The notes beneath the pieces are model-generated. The model did not search any database, was not told the DNA's origin, and was given only the letters and a program-made list of their open reading frames with translations. A DNA stretch of 23,112 bases from the IMG/VR virus record IMGVR_UViG_3300035698_015491, positions 1 through 23,112 of that record; one strand, given 5' to 3'. Below, piece by piece: positions 2,272 to 20,721 of the stretch. How positions within the stretch are numbered: the stretch's first letter is position 1; every line of letters begins with the position of its first letter. Position numbers and translations under genes: made by a program. Origin of the DNA: a virus.

Positions 2272-3323
2272 GATTCATAGCTACAGCGGATTTACACGCC
2301 AGCAATCATCCGCTCTTCTCTTTTGTTACTAAGAAGGGACTGAATAGCAGGCTTGAAGATGTTTTGAAAGTGCTCAATCAGATGAGAGTCTACGCTGAAA
2401 AGAATGGCATAAAGAATTTTCTCTTTTTAGGGGACCTCTTCCATTCCAGAACCCGCCTCAGCGTTGATGTGCTTCACCTGGTATGGGATATGTTTCTGAG
2501 TTTCAAGCTGGCCGGCATAGATGTTTATCTGCTTTCCGGGAATCACGATTTATTCCAGAGAAGCTCTACTTTCTATTCAGTAGAATCCTTCACGACTGTC
2601 TGTGAAGTCATCAGGGAGCCGAGAATGTTTGAGATAGACAGTGAGAAGATATATGCTCTTCCGTTTATAGATGACTTGAGTGAAAGAAGAAAGGCGTTGA
2701 AGGAATTGATCAAGGATAAAAGCAAAGGTGGCCTTCTTATCTCTCATACGCCAGTCATCGGAGCCAAAGCTAACGATAATCCTATAAGCGTTATTCAGGC
2801 TATGGGTTTGAAGGAGTTGTACCCAGAATTATTCAGCCTAATCCTATTGGGAGATTTTCACCAGCATCAATGGCTGGCCGATAATGTTATGTATGTAGGA
2901 AGTCCGCTTCAAATAGATAGAGGAGAGATGAACCAGGAGAAAGGCTTCTGGGATATAACACTGGAAGGGAAGAAATTCAAGACAAAGTTGATCCCCGCCA
3001 ACGCTCCGAAGTTTGTAACTCTTGATGAAGAAAGTGAAGAAGAGGTTGATGTGAAAGGGAATTACGTGAAGGTGGTTATCCCAACGGGTATGGGGGCCTC
3101 AGATGTAGCCGACATACGAAAGGCGTTGGAAGAGCAAGGAGCCAGAGCCGTGAAAGTTGAGCAGGCTCCGAAGGTAGAGGAAGTGAAAAATAGAATGGGG
3201 TTGAAACTGGATATGACTTTTCAGCAGATGGCGACTAAATATGTCAAAGGTAGTGAGAGCGGATTAGACGAAAAAAGACTTATTAAGATAGGAGAGGAAT
3301 TGATGGAAGAGTCTGATGTCTGA
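2268..3323 (+). CDS. sbcD: SbcD/Mre11-like DNA repair exonuclease subunit (T4 gp47-like)
   Basis: The 351-residue product carries the metallophosphoesterase motifs of the Mre11/SbcD/gp47 family in order: DLH (D8, H10), GDLFH (D56), GNHD (N92, H93), a histidine at H160 in LLISHTP, and GDFHQHQ (D196, H198, H200). These bind two metal ions for nuclease activity on double-strand ends. The partner ATPase is encoded at 3933. In phages this pair drives recombination-dependent replication and end processing. The length fits a phage gp47, shorter than bacterial SbcD. The start overlaps the previous stop (ATGA) and the 3' end overlaps the next start at 3316, so expression is coupled. Confidence 0.93.
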   Translation: MRFIATADLHASNHPLFSFVTKKGLNSRLEDVLKVLNQMRVYAEKNGIKNFLFLGDLFHSRTRLSVDVLHLVWDMFLSFKLAGIDVYLLSGNHDLFQRSSTFYSVESFTTVCEVIREPRMFEIDSEKIYALPFIDDLSERRKALKELIKDKSKGGLLISHTPVIGAKANDNPISVIQAMGLKELYPELFSLILLGDFHQHQWLADNVMYVGSPLQIDRGEMNQEKGFWDITLEGKKFKTKLIPANAPKFVTLDEESEEEVDVKGNYVKVVIPTGMGASDVADIRKALEEQGARAVKVEQAPKVEEVKNRMGLKLDMTFQQMATKYVKGSESGLDEKRLIKIGEELMEESDV

Positions 3324-6860: not shown

Positions 6861-7937
6861 ATGAAACTAAGTTGTGAGAAGAAAGTGTTGTTACCAGCTT
6901 TGATGAAGGCTAAGCATTGTCTAACCACTAAAGGAAATCTGCCAGTGCTGGAAACTGTGTTGTTGGAAGCGGAGGAATCACTGAGATTGACTACCACTAA
7001 TCTGGTTCTCACTGCTCTGATCAATTGCGAGGCAAACATTGAGGAACCTGGAAAGCTCTGTGTAGATGGCTTGAAGTTTCTGGAAATAGTGAGAAGATTA
7101 CCTGGAGAAGAGGTGAGCTTTTCTCAGAAAAAGGAGACTTTGATAGTGGATTCAGGCAAGGCGCATTTTGAGCTGGCCACTATACCGGCTGAGGAGTTCC
7201 CGGAGGTGAAGTTAGCGGTTCTTGGAGAAAAGCAGGCAAACATAGGAGAGCTTATCAGCTTGATGTCTAAGGTGTCTTTTTGTGCTGATACCGACTCTTA
7301 CAAGGGTTTCAATGTTGTATTCCTCGGAGATGACATTATAGCCACTGACGGCAGAAGGCTGGCTAAGGTTGAGAAGCTGGAAGAGTCAGACGTTAAAGCC
7401 TCTCTATCGGTTGACTTCGTGAAACTGCTCCCGGTTATGTTTGGAAAAGACGCTGGAACTGGAAAGATAAATTTGAAAGATGGACGAGTAATCTTCAGTG
7501 ACGGGAATGTGACTTTTGCTTCTCAATTGATGGAGAAGCAAGCTCCGGATTGGTGGCAAATATTTCCCACTGAGTCCAATTGCTCTTTCAAAATAAACAA
7601 GCAAGCCTTCTCCAGCAGCGTAGAACGAGTAGCGCTATTAGGAGATGAAAGCTTAGCTGTACGCCTGGATATAACTGACAAGGTGATCCTCACTGCTAAC
7701 TCTGATAGTGGAATGGCCAGGGAAGAGCTGAGCGTTGATGAGCTTAAAGGTGAGGTGAAGATAGCTTTCAGTGCCAGGTTGCTTAGGGGTTTGGAGAAGA
7801 TAGACGCTGAGGAGCTTATCGTTAAGTTTGTGAGCTCTGATTCGGCTATAGTGGTTGAGCCTTCTAATCCCGGCTATCTGGAACAAGGCTTTATTTTCGT
7901 GATGATGCCCTTGAAAATAGAGAAGGAAATCGAATGA
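6861..7937 (+). CDS. dnaN: DNA polymerase III beta-type sliding clamp
   Basis: The 358-residue product is the length of a bacterial DnaN and shows the three-domain pattern. The N-terminal segment includes LPVLETVLLEAEESLRLTTT. A central ATDGRRLAKVEKL at about residues 160-172 corresponds to the conserved ATDGHRLA loop. A C-terminal FVMMPLKI corresponds to the usual MPMRL ending that forms part of the partner-binding pocket. Clamps encircle DNA and tether polymerases and other enzymes carrying a clamp-binding peptide. GGAGATCTGA precedes the ATG. The 3' end overlaps the next start (ATGA at 7934). A phage with its own beta clamp probably also has its own polymerase outside this window. Confidence 0.93.
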   Translation: MKLSCEKKVLLPALMKAKHCLTTKGNLPVLETVLLEAEESLRLTTTNLVLTALINCEANIEEPGKLCVDGLKFLEIVRRLPGEEVSFSQKKETLIVDSGKAHFELATIPAEEFPEVKLAVLGEKQANIGELISLMSKVSFCADTDSYKGFNVVFLGDDIIATDGRRLAKVEKLEESDVKASLSVDFVKLLPVMFGKDAGTGKINLKDGRVIFSDGNVTFASQLMEKQAPDWWQIFPTESNCSFKINKQAFSSSVERVALLGDESLAVRLDITDKVILTANSDSGMAREELSVDELKGEVKIAFSARLLRGLEKIDAEELIVKFVSSDSAIVVEPSNPGYLEQGFIFVMMPLKIEKEIE

Positions 7938-8152
7938 TAATCTTAGCTTTTCTTGCAGGAATGATAATCGGAGGAGTAGCCGGGATCAACTCTACCTTTA
8001 GAGCGCTAAGATACCGCAAGATGGTTATTATGAAGCATTCAGATTGGATCTATATGGCAAGAAAGACTTTCGCTCCCAGCTATATGGGCTCGAAACACTT
8101 CTATGACTGCCGAAGATCTTCACCTAAACAACTTTCGCTCCCAGCTATATGA
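7934..8152 (+). CDS. small membrane protein whose 3' end runs into the repeat array
   Basis: The ATG overlaps the clamp stop (ATGA). Residues 1-20 (MIILAFLAGMIIGGVAGINS) form a membrane segment, followed by a basic stretch to about residue 44. From base 8067 the reading frame runs through repeat 1 of the array (encoding TFAPSYMGSK), spacer 1 and part of repeat 2 before stopping at 8150-8152. The last 28 residues are therefore array sequence, not an independent protein domain. The original gene probably ended differently and was truncated or extended when the IscB locus arrived. Alternatively the array evolved over its 3' end. Confidence 0.5.
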   Translation: MIILAFLAGMIIGGVAGINSTFRALRYRKMVIMKHSDWIYMARKTFAPSYMGSKHFYDCRRSSPKQLSLPAI

Positions 8153-8267
8153 ACTCGAAACTTTCGATCACTGAAGCAGGAAGGAGCATATATTCGCCTT
8201 TCGCTCCCAGCTATATGAACTCGAAACAACCCGGCCACTTTCGCTCCCAGCTATATGAACTCGAAAC
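8067..8267 (+). CRISPR. CRISPR-like array: four 30-nt repeats, three spacers
   Basis: Four direct repeats of 30 nt lie at 8067-8096, 8132-8161, 8198-8227 and 8238-8267. The repeat starts CTTTCGCTCC and ends AACTCGAAAC. Repeats 2-4 are identical; repeat 1 differs at two positions (GG for AA at 8087-8088). Spacers are 35, 36 and only 10 nt long and share no sequence. The repeat has terminal inverted sequences TTTCG/CGAAA and the GAAAC 3' end typical of CRISPR repeats. The array points the same way as the iscB gene and lies directly upstream of its guide-RNA region. No cas1, cas2 or other cas gene is in the window, so spacer acquisition would have to come from elsewhere or no longer occur. Confidence 0.88.
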
Positions 8268-8632
8268 TCTTGTCTTTATCGGCATCGCAGTTTTGCCCAT
8301 TTTGCTGAAACTAAGGTTGGTGGCGGAACAAGCTAAAATACCGTCGAACTATAAAAATAGCTGGGAATGGAAGCAGGATAAAGGTCACCTAATGAGTCAA
8401 GCCTTCAGTAATGGAGGTGTAGCCCAAGACCTTTGCTGGATAGGTGCACACCCTGGAGTGTGGCTTCAGCTCCTCGCTCTGTGGACAGTGAGCCTGAATA
8501 CTCGCCCTGGTTCGCCAGGGAAGGCAATAAATAGCGGTAACGCTATAAACAGCTTGCTATCGCTAAACCCTATTCAGAGTGTCCAAGAAGCAAGTAACAA
8601 CTTTTCGGGGAGAGGTTAATCCCTCTCCCTTG
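8238..8632 (+). ncRNA. IscB guide RNA scaffold (omega RNA / HEARO-like) with an anti-repeat
   Basis: The region between the array and iscB has no credible gene and folds well. The core of repeat 4, TCCCAGCTAT (8245-8254), is perfectly complementary to 8357-8366, and TCGA at 8261-8264 can pair with TCGA at 8344-8347, forming a repeat/anti-repeat duplex in cis. Inside that loop CTTGT 8269-8273 can pair with ACAAG 8328-8332. Further stems are 8447-8451/8458-8462, 8483-8487/8580-8584 and 8494-8500/8571-8577 (7 bp). Two capped hairpins follow: CCCTGG-TTCG-CCAGGG (8505-8520) and ATAGCG-GTAA-CGCTAT (8531-8546). A final 8-bp hairpin 8608-8615/8622-8629 ends just before the iscB ribosome binding site. 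IscB guide RNAs (HEARO family) occupy this position. The exact 5' and 3' ends are inferred. Confidence 0.85.
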
Positions 8633-8649
8633 AGAAGAGAGGAGAAGTT

Positions 8650-10221
8650 ATGAAACTAAAACTTGATAAGGATCAATTATCGTTTGTGTTTATGCCTTTT
8701 GCTCCTACAGATAGAAAAGAAAAGGTTATTTTAGGTATTGATGACGGTGGCAAGTATGTTGGTTATGCTCTTTATTCTGCTGTCGCTTTTGCAACTAATT
8801 CTGGAAAGATTCTGGAGACTGGTGTGATCTATGTTGGAAACAGAATCAAAAAGAAATTGGAACAAAGACGGGGATTTAGAAGAGGTAGGAGAAGTAAGCT
8901 CGGCTCCAGGCCTAAAAGGTTTGAGAATCGGAAAGCTGGCACTTCGCCTTGTGTGTGGTGTGGGGCTAATGCCGAAGTAGGGAAAGATTTCTGTGGTATT
9001 TGTCAGCGATCTTTGAGCAAATCAGAGAAAGCTCACATAAGGAAGGATCCTAAATATTATAAGCTTCCACCTCCCAGTATAAAGGCTAAGAAGGATTGCG
9101 TTTTGAGAGCCGCTAAAATACTGGTCAAGAGATATGATATTAAAAAGGTAATAGTGGAAACTGCCACTTTTGATTTTCAGAAGTTGGCCGATCCTGATAT
9201 TGAGGGTAAGGAATACCAGCAAGGCCCGGGATATGGTTATCATACTAAGAAGCAAGCTTTAACTTCTTTTTATGGTTGGAGGTGTGCTTATTGTGGGGCC
9301 GAAGATAAGAAGAAATTAGAGATTGAACATATAAGGCCAGTTTCAAGGGGTGGAACGAGTCAATGGGAGAATCTGGCATTAGCTTGTGTGGAGTGCAATA
9401 GAAAAAAAGGGAACAGGACGCCGGAAGAAGCGGGAATGAAACTTAATTTGAAATATGAATATCAAACTAGGAGTGGCAAGAGGAAAGTTACTGCTGATCA
9501 TACTGCGCCACTTAGCAGATTTATGTATGCTGCTCACGTTCAGGCGGGCAAGACTTATCTGGTTCAGGAGCTTAGGAAACTTTTTCCAGAGGTGAAGGAA
9601 ACCAACGGTTCTATGACCAGTTATTGGAGAAAACAATATGAGGGATTGGAGAAATCGCATTCAGCCGACGCTATGATAATAGCCAGCTTTGGAGCACCAA
9701 GAAAGCGAGGCGAGAAGCGGAAGCTGGATTATACTGGAGCAGTTCACTATAAGATAAAAGCTCAAGGTTGTAAAACCAAACAGAAATACAACGCTTCCAC
9801 ATATTCGCTTTCATGCCCAGCTATTTCTGAGCTCGACAACATTAGAGGTAAAGAAGTGTTGAGAATAAGAAGCAAAGGTAAGATTAAAGGAGAGTATAAG
9901 CTTAATAAACAGTTTGTTGAGATCAACAACAGATGGAAAAAGAAAGTAACGGTAAATGATTCTATCAGAGATAGGATTACTGAGCAGGAATTTTTCAAGG
10001 GAGATTTGGTTAAGACGGATGGGTTAATTGGTAGGATTACAAAGATATTGAGCTCTGGGTCTGTTGGTATTATGGTGTCTAATAATGGGAATAGTAAGGA
10101 GTATACCAGGATACCTAAAAAGTTTGAGCTTCTTAGTCGAGCAAGAGTTCTTTTTGAAGAGGTTGATTGGGAAAGCATACAAGCGGAAGGTAGGAAGGAT
10201 AAAAGCGTTGCTTTGAAATAA
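8650..10221 (+). CDS. iscB: IscB RNA-guided DNA nuclease (RuvC + HNH), Cas9-ancestor family
   Basis: The 523-residue product has all IscB core parts. RuvC-I is [14 protein letters not shown] (D31). The arginine-rich bridge helix is [12 protein letters not shown] (about 72-83). RuvC-II is [11 protein letters not shown] (E170). The HNH domain has CAYC (C212, C215), [12 protein letters not shown] (H227), N241 and [11 protein letters not shown] (C246, C249). RuvC-III is [12 protein letters not shown] (H337, D340). IscB uses a guide RNA to cut double-stranded DNA. Unusual features are a short, diverged N-terminus in place of the usual PLMP domain, an extra CxxC...CxxC zinc ribbon (C101, C104, C115, C118) after the bridge helix, and a long C-terminal region. 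GAGAGGAGAAG precedes the ATG. No transposase gene is nearby. All catalytic residues are present, so activity is plausible. Confidence 0.93.
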
Positions 10222-19681: not shown

Positions 19682-19695
19682 AGGAGTTGAGAGGT

Positions 19696-20721
19696 TTGAA
19701 AATAAGTAAGCCGAAATTGATTGTTTGTGAGAGTTGTGGTAAAGAAAGACCACATCAGGCATTTGGGCTTTGCAATCTTTGTTATGCTAAGCGGTACTAT
19801 CGAAAGCATAGAGTGCTGAAGGAGCGTAAAGAGAGGTTTTGTGCTTGTTGTGGAAAGGTATTTATGCCAAGGAAATTTAGTTCGAATCAGAAATTTTGTA
19901 GCCATAGTTGTAGTGAAAGAGGCGATTTGACTAAGATCTGTCGGTGGTGCCATAAGGAGTATAAGGTTACGAAAAGACGCTTTGAGATTTCCAAGTGTTG
20001 TTCCCGGTCTTGTTTGGCAAAATACGAGCAAAGTAAGAAAACTAAAGAAGAGAGATCTGAAATAGCTTCTAAAAGGGCTTATAACCGCTGGGCCAAATAT
20101 ACACCTGAAGAACGTAGCCAAATGAATACCGGGGAGAATAATCCTCGTTATGGTTGTGTGGTTACAGAGGAGACGAGGCGAAAAATATCAGAGGGGAATA
20201 TGGGCAATATCCCTTGGGATAAGGGCTTGACTAAATATACCGACCCCAGGTTGAAAGCTGCTGGTAAAAAGGTAGCTGGTTCGGGTAATGGCATGTTCGG
20301 TAAAGTTCCTTCTTCGAGATGTAATCTTAACCACGGGGGATTCCGAGATGATCTGGGGCATAATGTGAGAAGCACCTGGGAGGCGAACGTAGCTAGGATC
20401 TTTAATTATCTTGGGATCGAATATGAGTATGAAGGGGAGACCTTCAGGTTAGGTGAGACTTGCTACACTCCAGATTTCAAACTTGGAGCAAAACAATTCT
20501 GTGAGGTTAAGGGATTTATGAGGCCAAAGAGTAAGATGAAGATTGAGAAGTTCATTGAGTTATTCCCAGAGTATTCATTGTTTCTGATTGATAAGGATGT
20601 CTATGAATTCCTGGAGATAGAATTTAGTCAGAAGGTTTCTATGTGGGAGTTTCCAAAGCGGATTGAGGAAAAGGAAGATAGAACTAAGGACCAGTTTCTG
20701 CTTGAGTTTGCGAATAATTAG
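19696..20721 (+). CDS. free-standing homing endonuclease (zinc fingers, NUMOD3, PD-(D/E)XK nuclease)
   Basis: I prefer TTG 19696, 9 bases after GAGGAG; a TTG at 19687 is too close to that site. The 341-residue product has several CxxC zinc-finger-like units (CESC, CNLC, CACC, CSHSC, CRWC, CSRSC). It then has NUMOD3-type repeats (NTGENNPRYG, ISEGNMGNIPWDKG, GSGNGMFGK). The C-terminal nuclease region has RSTWEANVARIFNYLGIEYE, YTPDFKLG (D260) and FCEVKGF (E270, K272). Modular DNA-binding pieces joined to a PD-(D/E)XK or VSR-like nuclease are typical of phage homing endonucleases. It probably arrived as a mobile gene after the MuF-like gene. Confidence 0.82.
   Translation: MKISKPKLIVCESCGKERPHQAFGLCNLCYAKRYYRKHRVLKERKERFCACCGKVFMPRKFSSNQKFCSHSCSERGDLTKICRWCHKEYKVTKRRFEISKCCSRSCLAKYEQSKKTKEERSEIASKRAYNRWAKYTPEERSQMNTGENNPRYGCVVTEETRRKISEGNMGNIPWDKGLTKYTDPRLKAAGKKVAGSGNGMFGKVPSSRCNLNHGGFRDDLGHNVRSTWEANVARIFNYLGIEYEYEGETFRLGETCYTPDFKLGAKQFCEVKGFMRPKSKMKIEKFIELFPEYSLFLIDKDVYEFLEIEFSQKVSMWEFPKRIEEKEDRTKDQFLLEFANN

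Follow-up and report, generated by a model that had tools for sequence, protein, structure and literature searches.

A phage IscB-type nuclease locus with a CRISPR-type repeat array, a complementary anti-repeat and an effector lacking the PLMP domain

In omega RNAs the guide comes first and the guide-adaptor stem follows. CRISPR-associated IscB loci were reportedly described by Altae-Tran et al. 2021; in these, an array is said to precede the IscB gene, with its last repeat running into the omega RNA scaffold. How a single long guide RNA gave way, in Cas9, to a crRNA and a tracrRNA that are separate molecules is, to our knowledge, still an open question. In published structures the guide-adaptor hairpin is the counterpart of the Cas9 repeat:anti-repeat duplex (PMC9640706; PMC9581776), and the loss of the PLMP domain, which is absent from Cas9 and whose deletion abolished nicking and activity in IsrB, has been assigned to the route that led to Cas9 (PMC9581776). 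The IscB known as TbaIscB stands at the base of the Cas9 lineage, and the type II-D Cas9s combine an effector and an array without adaptation genes (PMC11706934). CRISPR-associated IscBs go by the name 'CasIscBs' in PMC13180657, and one survey reported HEARO/IscB systems not to be CRISPR-associated (PMC9755519).

The 23,112-nt IMG/VR virus record analysed here (the window) holds a locus that resembles the CRISPR-associated IscBs in that an array stands before an IscB-type gene and its last repeat leads into a predicted omega RNA scaffold, and that differs from them in its phage replicon, in the missing PLMP domain, in an anti-repeat placed some 100 nt beyond repeat 4 and in a decayed repeat inside the open reading frame (ORF). 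The other scanned genes of the window are those of a phage (sliding clamp, SbcC-like, terminase, portal and head morphogenesis), and 19687-20721, which carries a NUMOD3 motif and putatively encodes an endonuclease of the homing type, may hold a second mobile nuclease. Repeat detection finds four copies of the 30-nt repeat CTTTCGCTCCCAGCTATATGAACTCGAAAC 5′ of the IscB-type ORF and on the same, plus strand: repeat 1 at 8067-8096, repeat 2 at 8132-8161, repeat 3 at 8198-8227 and repeat 4 at 8238-8267, copies 2-4 being the same at all 30 positions and copy 1 differing by GG in place of AA. At up to three mismatches, TTTCGCTCCCAGCTAT is found six times in the window against 0.26 expected. The spacers, also on the plus strand, measure 35 nt (spacer 1, 8097-8131), 36 nt (spacer 2, 8162-8197) and, by the layout of the array, just 10 nt (spacer 3, 8228-8237), and repeat 4 continues directly into the scaffold, the arrangement that characterizes a CRISPR-associated IscB.

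Target searches gave no credible match for spacers 1 and 2, BLAST matches at E=4 and E=0.1 being judged chance; spacer 2 has no exact 20-nt match among viral contigs, no spacer matches any other part of the window, and no exact copy of the repeat was found elsewhere in viral contigs. Neither Cas1 nor Cas2 occurs among the scanned proteins of the window, which may come from a genome fragment. An effector and an array without adaptation genes are also what the window has in common with type II-D Cas9, from which it differs in effector length (523 aa versus about 750 aa) and in failing the Cas9d model. Around the array itself, a 72-aa ORF (7934-8149), whose start overlaps the stop of the sliding-clamp gene as ATGA, has a hydrophobic stretch at its start, spans repeat 1 and ends in repeat 2. 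This reads as though a small gene had been invaded at its 3′ end by the array; in that case the bases preceding repeat 1 would form a guide directed at the site as it was before the interruption. A 156-aa ORF overlapping the RNA (8149-8619), without a Pfam match, was taken as spurious, and scans for intrinsic terminators and promoters gave nothing useful.

The protein encoded downstream of the array (8650-10221, plus strand) is, by domain, profile and structure searches, an IscB-type RuvC/HNH nuclease of 523 aa. It carries RRXRR (PF14239) and HNH domains, the RuvC fold having a bridge helix and an inserted HNH; it scores 189 bits in the NF040563 guided_IscB model, above the cut-off of 175, and falls short of both the Cas9d model NF049971 (50.8 of 375 bits) and the Cas9 models. 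Residues D31, E170, H227, H337 and D340 are invariant in 39 sequences, namely the effector and 38 viral relatives, and by this alignment the RuvC and HNH catalytic residues are intact. The nearest solved relative is TbaIscB (E=2.8e-55), which shares a CxxCG motif after the bridge helix and is set apart by an identity of 37%; YnpsCas9 and other type II-D Cas9s come next. YnpsCas9, IscB and II-D Cas9 are likewise the top Foldseek matches of an AlphaFold model of the effector that is of moderate quality (mean pLDDT 65, residues 376-445 below pLDDT 50). Cas9d has the RuvC-I motif GIDxGGKY in common with the effector and also starts near RuvC-I, and a large insert between the bridge helix and RuvC-II, such as the REC insertion of Cas9d, is absent from the 523-aa protein. 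In a tree of 51 proteins the effector groups with TbaIscB, YnpsCas9 and Cas9d (support 90/94), a placement to be read with caution in view of long branches; since such branches join one another when Cas9d is included, the tree was rebuilt without Cas9d, whereupon a clade of the window protein with TbaIscB was not rejected (p-AU 0.73), nor was it shown. Taken together, the place of the protein is in the TbaIscB/type II-D Cas9 neighbourhood. On the cellular side, a set of IscBs (L209-L210 and L218-L223) from genomes of the phylum/class of a Lachnospiraceae genome have the CxxCG motif after the bridge helix and keep PLMP; by sequence, these look like the nearest cellular relatives found.

The effector itself has lost the PLMP domain. 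A PLMP profile built from the N-termini of relatives scores 2.6 bits in it against at least 33.9 bits in 111 relatives, with 6.4 bits in one late-starting relative, and no reading frame of the window gives a significant match to the domain. Because PLMP is a defining feature of IscB, we refer to the effector as IscB-type and not as a typical IscB. Furthermore, since deletion of PLMP abolishes nicking in IsrB, the comparison suggests that the PLMP-less effector may either be inactive or need compensation.

A preliminary description of the locus had held that the core of the repeat, TCCCAGCTAT (8245-8254, present in each repeat), is perfectly complementary to 8357-8366. This is exactly so, and pairing goes on beyond those 10 nt as far as 8373, so that 8238-8254, the first 17 nt of repeat 4, face 8357-8373 with 16 of 17 positions paired, two of them as G-U, and a single C/A mismatch. 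A comparable ungapped duplex arose in only 2 of 2,000 dinucleotide shuffles of the scaffold and is therefore rarer than chance, in keeping with the claim that the scaffold holds a tracrRNA-like anti-repeat; by gapped duplex energy the result is marginal, at -24.1 kcal/mol versus -19.2 ± 2.6 kcal/mol in shuffles, 48 of 1,000 being as good. From pairing and duplex prediction we place the anti-repeat at 8343-8374 (plus strand), with its core helix at 8357-8373 and a weak TCGA extension at 8344-8347. The pairing of this TCGA with the one in the repeat, likewise put forward earlier, does appear in the predicted duplex over 8343-8374, but it amounts to four base pairs on the far side of an internal loop, in a word complementary to itself, and would carry little weight alone. 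On the main point the earlier observation was correct and understated. All four repeats are able to pair with the anti-repeat, the pairing half being intact in each.

In the predicted fold the two stem strands enclose a scaffold segment at 8268-8342, and the remaining omega RNA core, with a terminal hairpin near the ribosome-binding site, would occupy 8375-8640 (both plus strand). The fold of 8238-8640 is more stable than those of shuffled sequences (z-score -2.63) and, taken alone, contains the cis helix with pair probabilities of 0.81-1.0 except at the mismatch. No Rfam family matches at its gathering threshold; a local match to positions 93-127 of HEARO (RF02033) at 8448-8482 (plus strand) is suggestive, its 18.2 bits, with E=0.24 when all Rfam families are counted, lying far below the gathering score of 83. 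The predicted RNA resembles canonical omega RNA in its location 5′ of the ORF and in this local match, and differs from it in the sub-gathering score and in that the guide-adaptor strand is a CRISPR-type repeat in four copies. Because the guide-adaptor stem is equated with the repeat:anti-repeat duplex, the helix is one to be expected of an omega RNA in cis, where the anti-repeat is the descending strand of the stem that any omega RNA has. The unusual part is that the ascending strand is copied three more times upstream, with the 35-, 36- and 10-nt spacers in between.

No close homologue suited to covariation was found in viral contigs (protein and alignment scans), in one genome-contig scan, by phage and plasmid tblastn or in about 790 genomes, and the IscBs that these searches did return were all some 25-40% identical. 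We inspected 77 distinct IscB loci for arrays, each with 400 nt or more of upstream sequence, and one further real array came to light, on a 94-kb viral contig (L200, IMGVR_UViG_3300032007_000052, the locus lying at 2429-3082); the other candidates, a coding repeat (L088), a duplicated omega RNA hairpin (L116), L150 and L221, were rejected as not CRISPR-like. Like the window, L200 has its IscB preceded by a CRISPR-type array that leads into an omega RNA. Its 36-nt repeat occurs three times with a 66-nt period, and the last copy starts a HEARO match of 106 bits and takes the place of the guide-adaptor stem in canonical omega RNA, a parallel that supports the same reading of the window locus. 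L200 differs in that its repeat folds alone as a hairpin, whereas the partner strand of the window repeat lies some 100 nt away. The L200 IscB belongs to a different, distant branch of the tree and keeps PLMP, a separate stand-alone HEARO RNA of 127 bits is present just upstream, and the repeat core is absent from other viral contigs.

We consider it likely that this phage locus is of the CRISPR-associated IscB type, belongs to the TbaIscB/early-Cas9 lineage and makes an omega RNA whose guide-adaptor stem is built from the repeat and the anti-repeat at 8357-8373. The ascending strand of that stem would have been multiplied into the four-repeat array with its spacers, array and scaffold would most likely be co-transcribed, the anti-repeat would pair in cis with one or another of the repeats, the sequence 5′ of the paired repeat would become the guide, and the PLMP-less IscB would presumably cut DNA with it. 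Against this explanation stand the HEARO score far short of gathering, the marginal gapped energy, the 10-nt spacer 3, the loss of activity on PLMP deletion in the related IsrB, the moderate quality of the effector model and the long branches of the tree. As for which repeat would serve, repeat 4 had been proposed as the cis partner, and it has the high pair probabilities given above when 8238-8640 is folded alone; in folds of the full array transcript, however, prediction favours repeat 3 as the partner of the anti-repeat, by about 6 kcal/mol. By constrained ensemble energy over the whole array, repeat 3 (-186.8) comes before repeat 2 (-184.8), repeat 4 (-180.8) and repeat 1 (-178.6); these values are rough and do not single out repeat 4. 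With spacer 3 of only 10 nt, a guide 5′ of repeat 4 would run into repeat 3, making repeat 4 a poor guide carrier and leaving room for repeat 3 in cis or for repeats 2-3 in trans. The array spacers may actually serve as guides, and possibly in trans, though that use is unproven.

Alternatively, the guide-adaptor strand may simply have been duplicated in tandem, leaving a passive array whose spacers do not act as guides and one ordinary omega RNA as the functional species. The small number of repeats, the 10-nt spacer, the lack of Cas1/Cas2 among the scanned window proteins and of spacer targets, and the presence of a decayed repeat copy within the ORF as well would all suit such an origin; we nevertheless find it doubtful, since the spacers differ whereas repeats 2-4 share all 30 nt, the 35 and 36 nt of spacers 1 and 2 look like regulated lengths, and L200 has a matching arrangement with its 66-nt period. 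Unlikely, too, is a dual-RNA system in which the repeat-spacer RNAs of spacers 1 and 2 act as separate crRNAs that pair in trans with a tracrRNA-like scaffold: repeat 4 or repeat 3, physically linked in cis to the anti-repeat, should win the competition, and neither a processing signal nor a spacer target was found, even if the intact pairing half of all four repeats, the full length of spacers 1 and 2 next to a repeat 4 whose own spacer is too short for a normal guide, and a PLMP loss and RuvC-I motif that are both Cas9d-like speak in its favour.

The repeat copy in the effector gene raises a different role for the anti-repeat. The IscB coding sequence carries GCTTTCATGCCCAGCTATTTCTGAGCTCGAC at 9807-9837 (plus strand), which can be aligned to the end of spacer 2 plus repeat 3 and matches the reverse complement of the anti-repeat (8343-8374) more closely still: its score of 32 compares with a best of 25 in 1,000 synonymous shuffles of the whole ORF, none of which reached it. 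The duplex predicted between this site and the scaffold has an energy of -37.8 kcal/mol, versus -24.1 kcal/mol for an array repeat, and a local duplex test at 9807-9837 gave -39.7 versus -20.3 ± 3.9 with none of 1,000 shuffles as good, although here the site was picked after it had been seen and the whole-ORF test is the fairer one. The encoded residues fall within a stretch (residues 376-445) that the structure model does not predict reliably. The last bases of spacer 2, CATATATTCGC (8183-8197), resemble CACATATTCGC (9796-9807), just 5′ of the ORF pseudo-repeat, and the ORF copy may therefore derive from a spacer 2-repeat 3 unit. The site at 9807-9837 could be either a captured, decayed repeat or a scaffold-binding site on the effector mRNA. 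In two paralogous IscB loci of one contig (L088 and L094), the 3′ end of the ORF is complementary to an upstream RNA segment, within GC-rich hairpins. That the window anti-repeat mainly pairs with the mRNA of its own effector at 9807-9837, and so controls expression, we regard as very unlikely: the stronger duplex and the outcome of the synonymous shuffles speak for it, but in the fold of a long transcript (8060-9900) the probability of this helix is near 0, the site could be a repeat that the ORF has captured as a fossil, and the case comes from one genome only. Chance pairing with no omega RNA present is scarcely credible, for despite the missing Rfam match at gathering threshold and the marginal duplex energy, so few shuffles equal the ungapped score, and the anti-repeat lies on the right side and at the right distance for a guide-adaptor stem with the right gene adjoining.

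CRISPR-associated IscBs as such are already known; what is new to us in the present locus is its phage location, the loss of PLMP and the ORF-borne repeat. Together with L200, it shows that IscB loci with CRISPR-type arrays occur in viruses, in contrast to the survey cited above (PMC9755519). The locus combines parts of both guide-RNA states, with an anti-repeat scaffold, four strands able to pair with it and an IscB-sized effector that lacks PLMP as Cas9 does, and it is compact enough for direct laboratory study. The preliminary description had called it an intermediate between a single omega RNA and the crRNA/tracrRNA pair, a term that fits its anatomy, while the evolutionary step itself is not demonstrated given the long effector branch and the 90/94 support for its grouping. 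It is quite improbable as a whole, yet conceivable, that the PLMP-less phage IscB is a true dual-RNA nuclease, served by several spacer-repeat RNAs in trans and one scaffold whose anti-repeat also controls the effector mRNA; were this the case, the locus would be a living intermediate between the omega RNA and the crRNA/tracrRNA pair.
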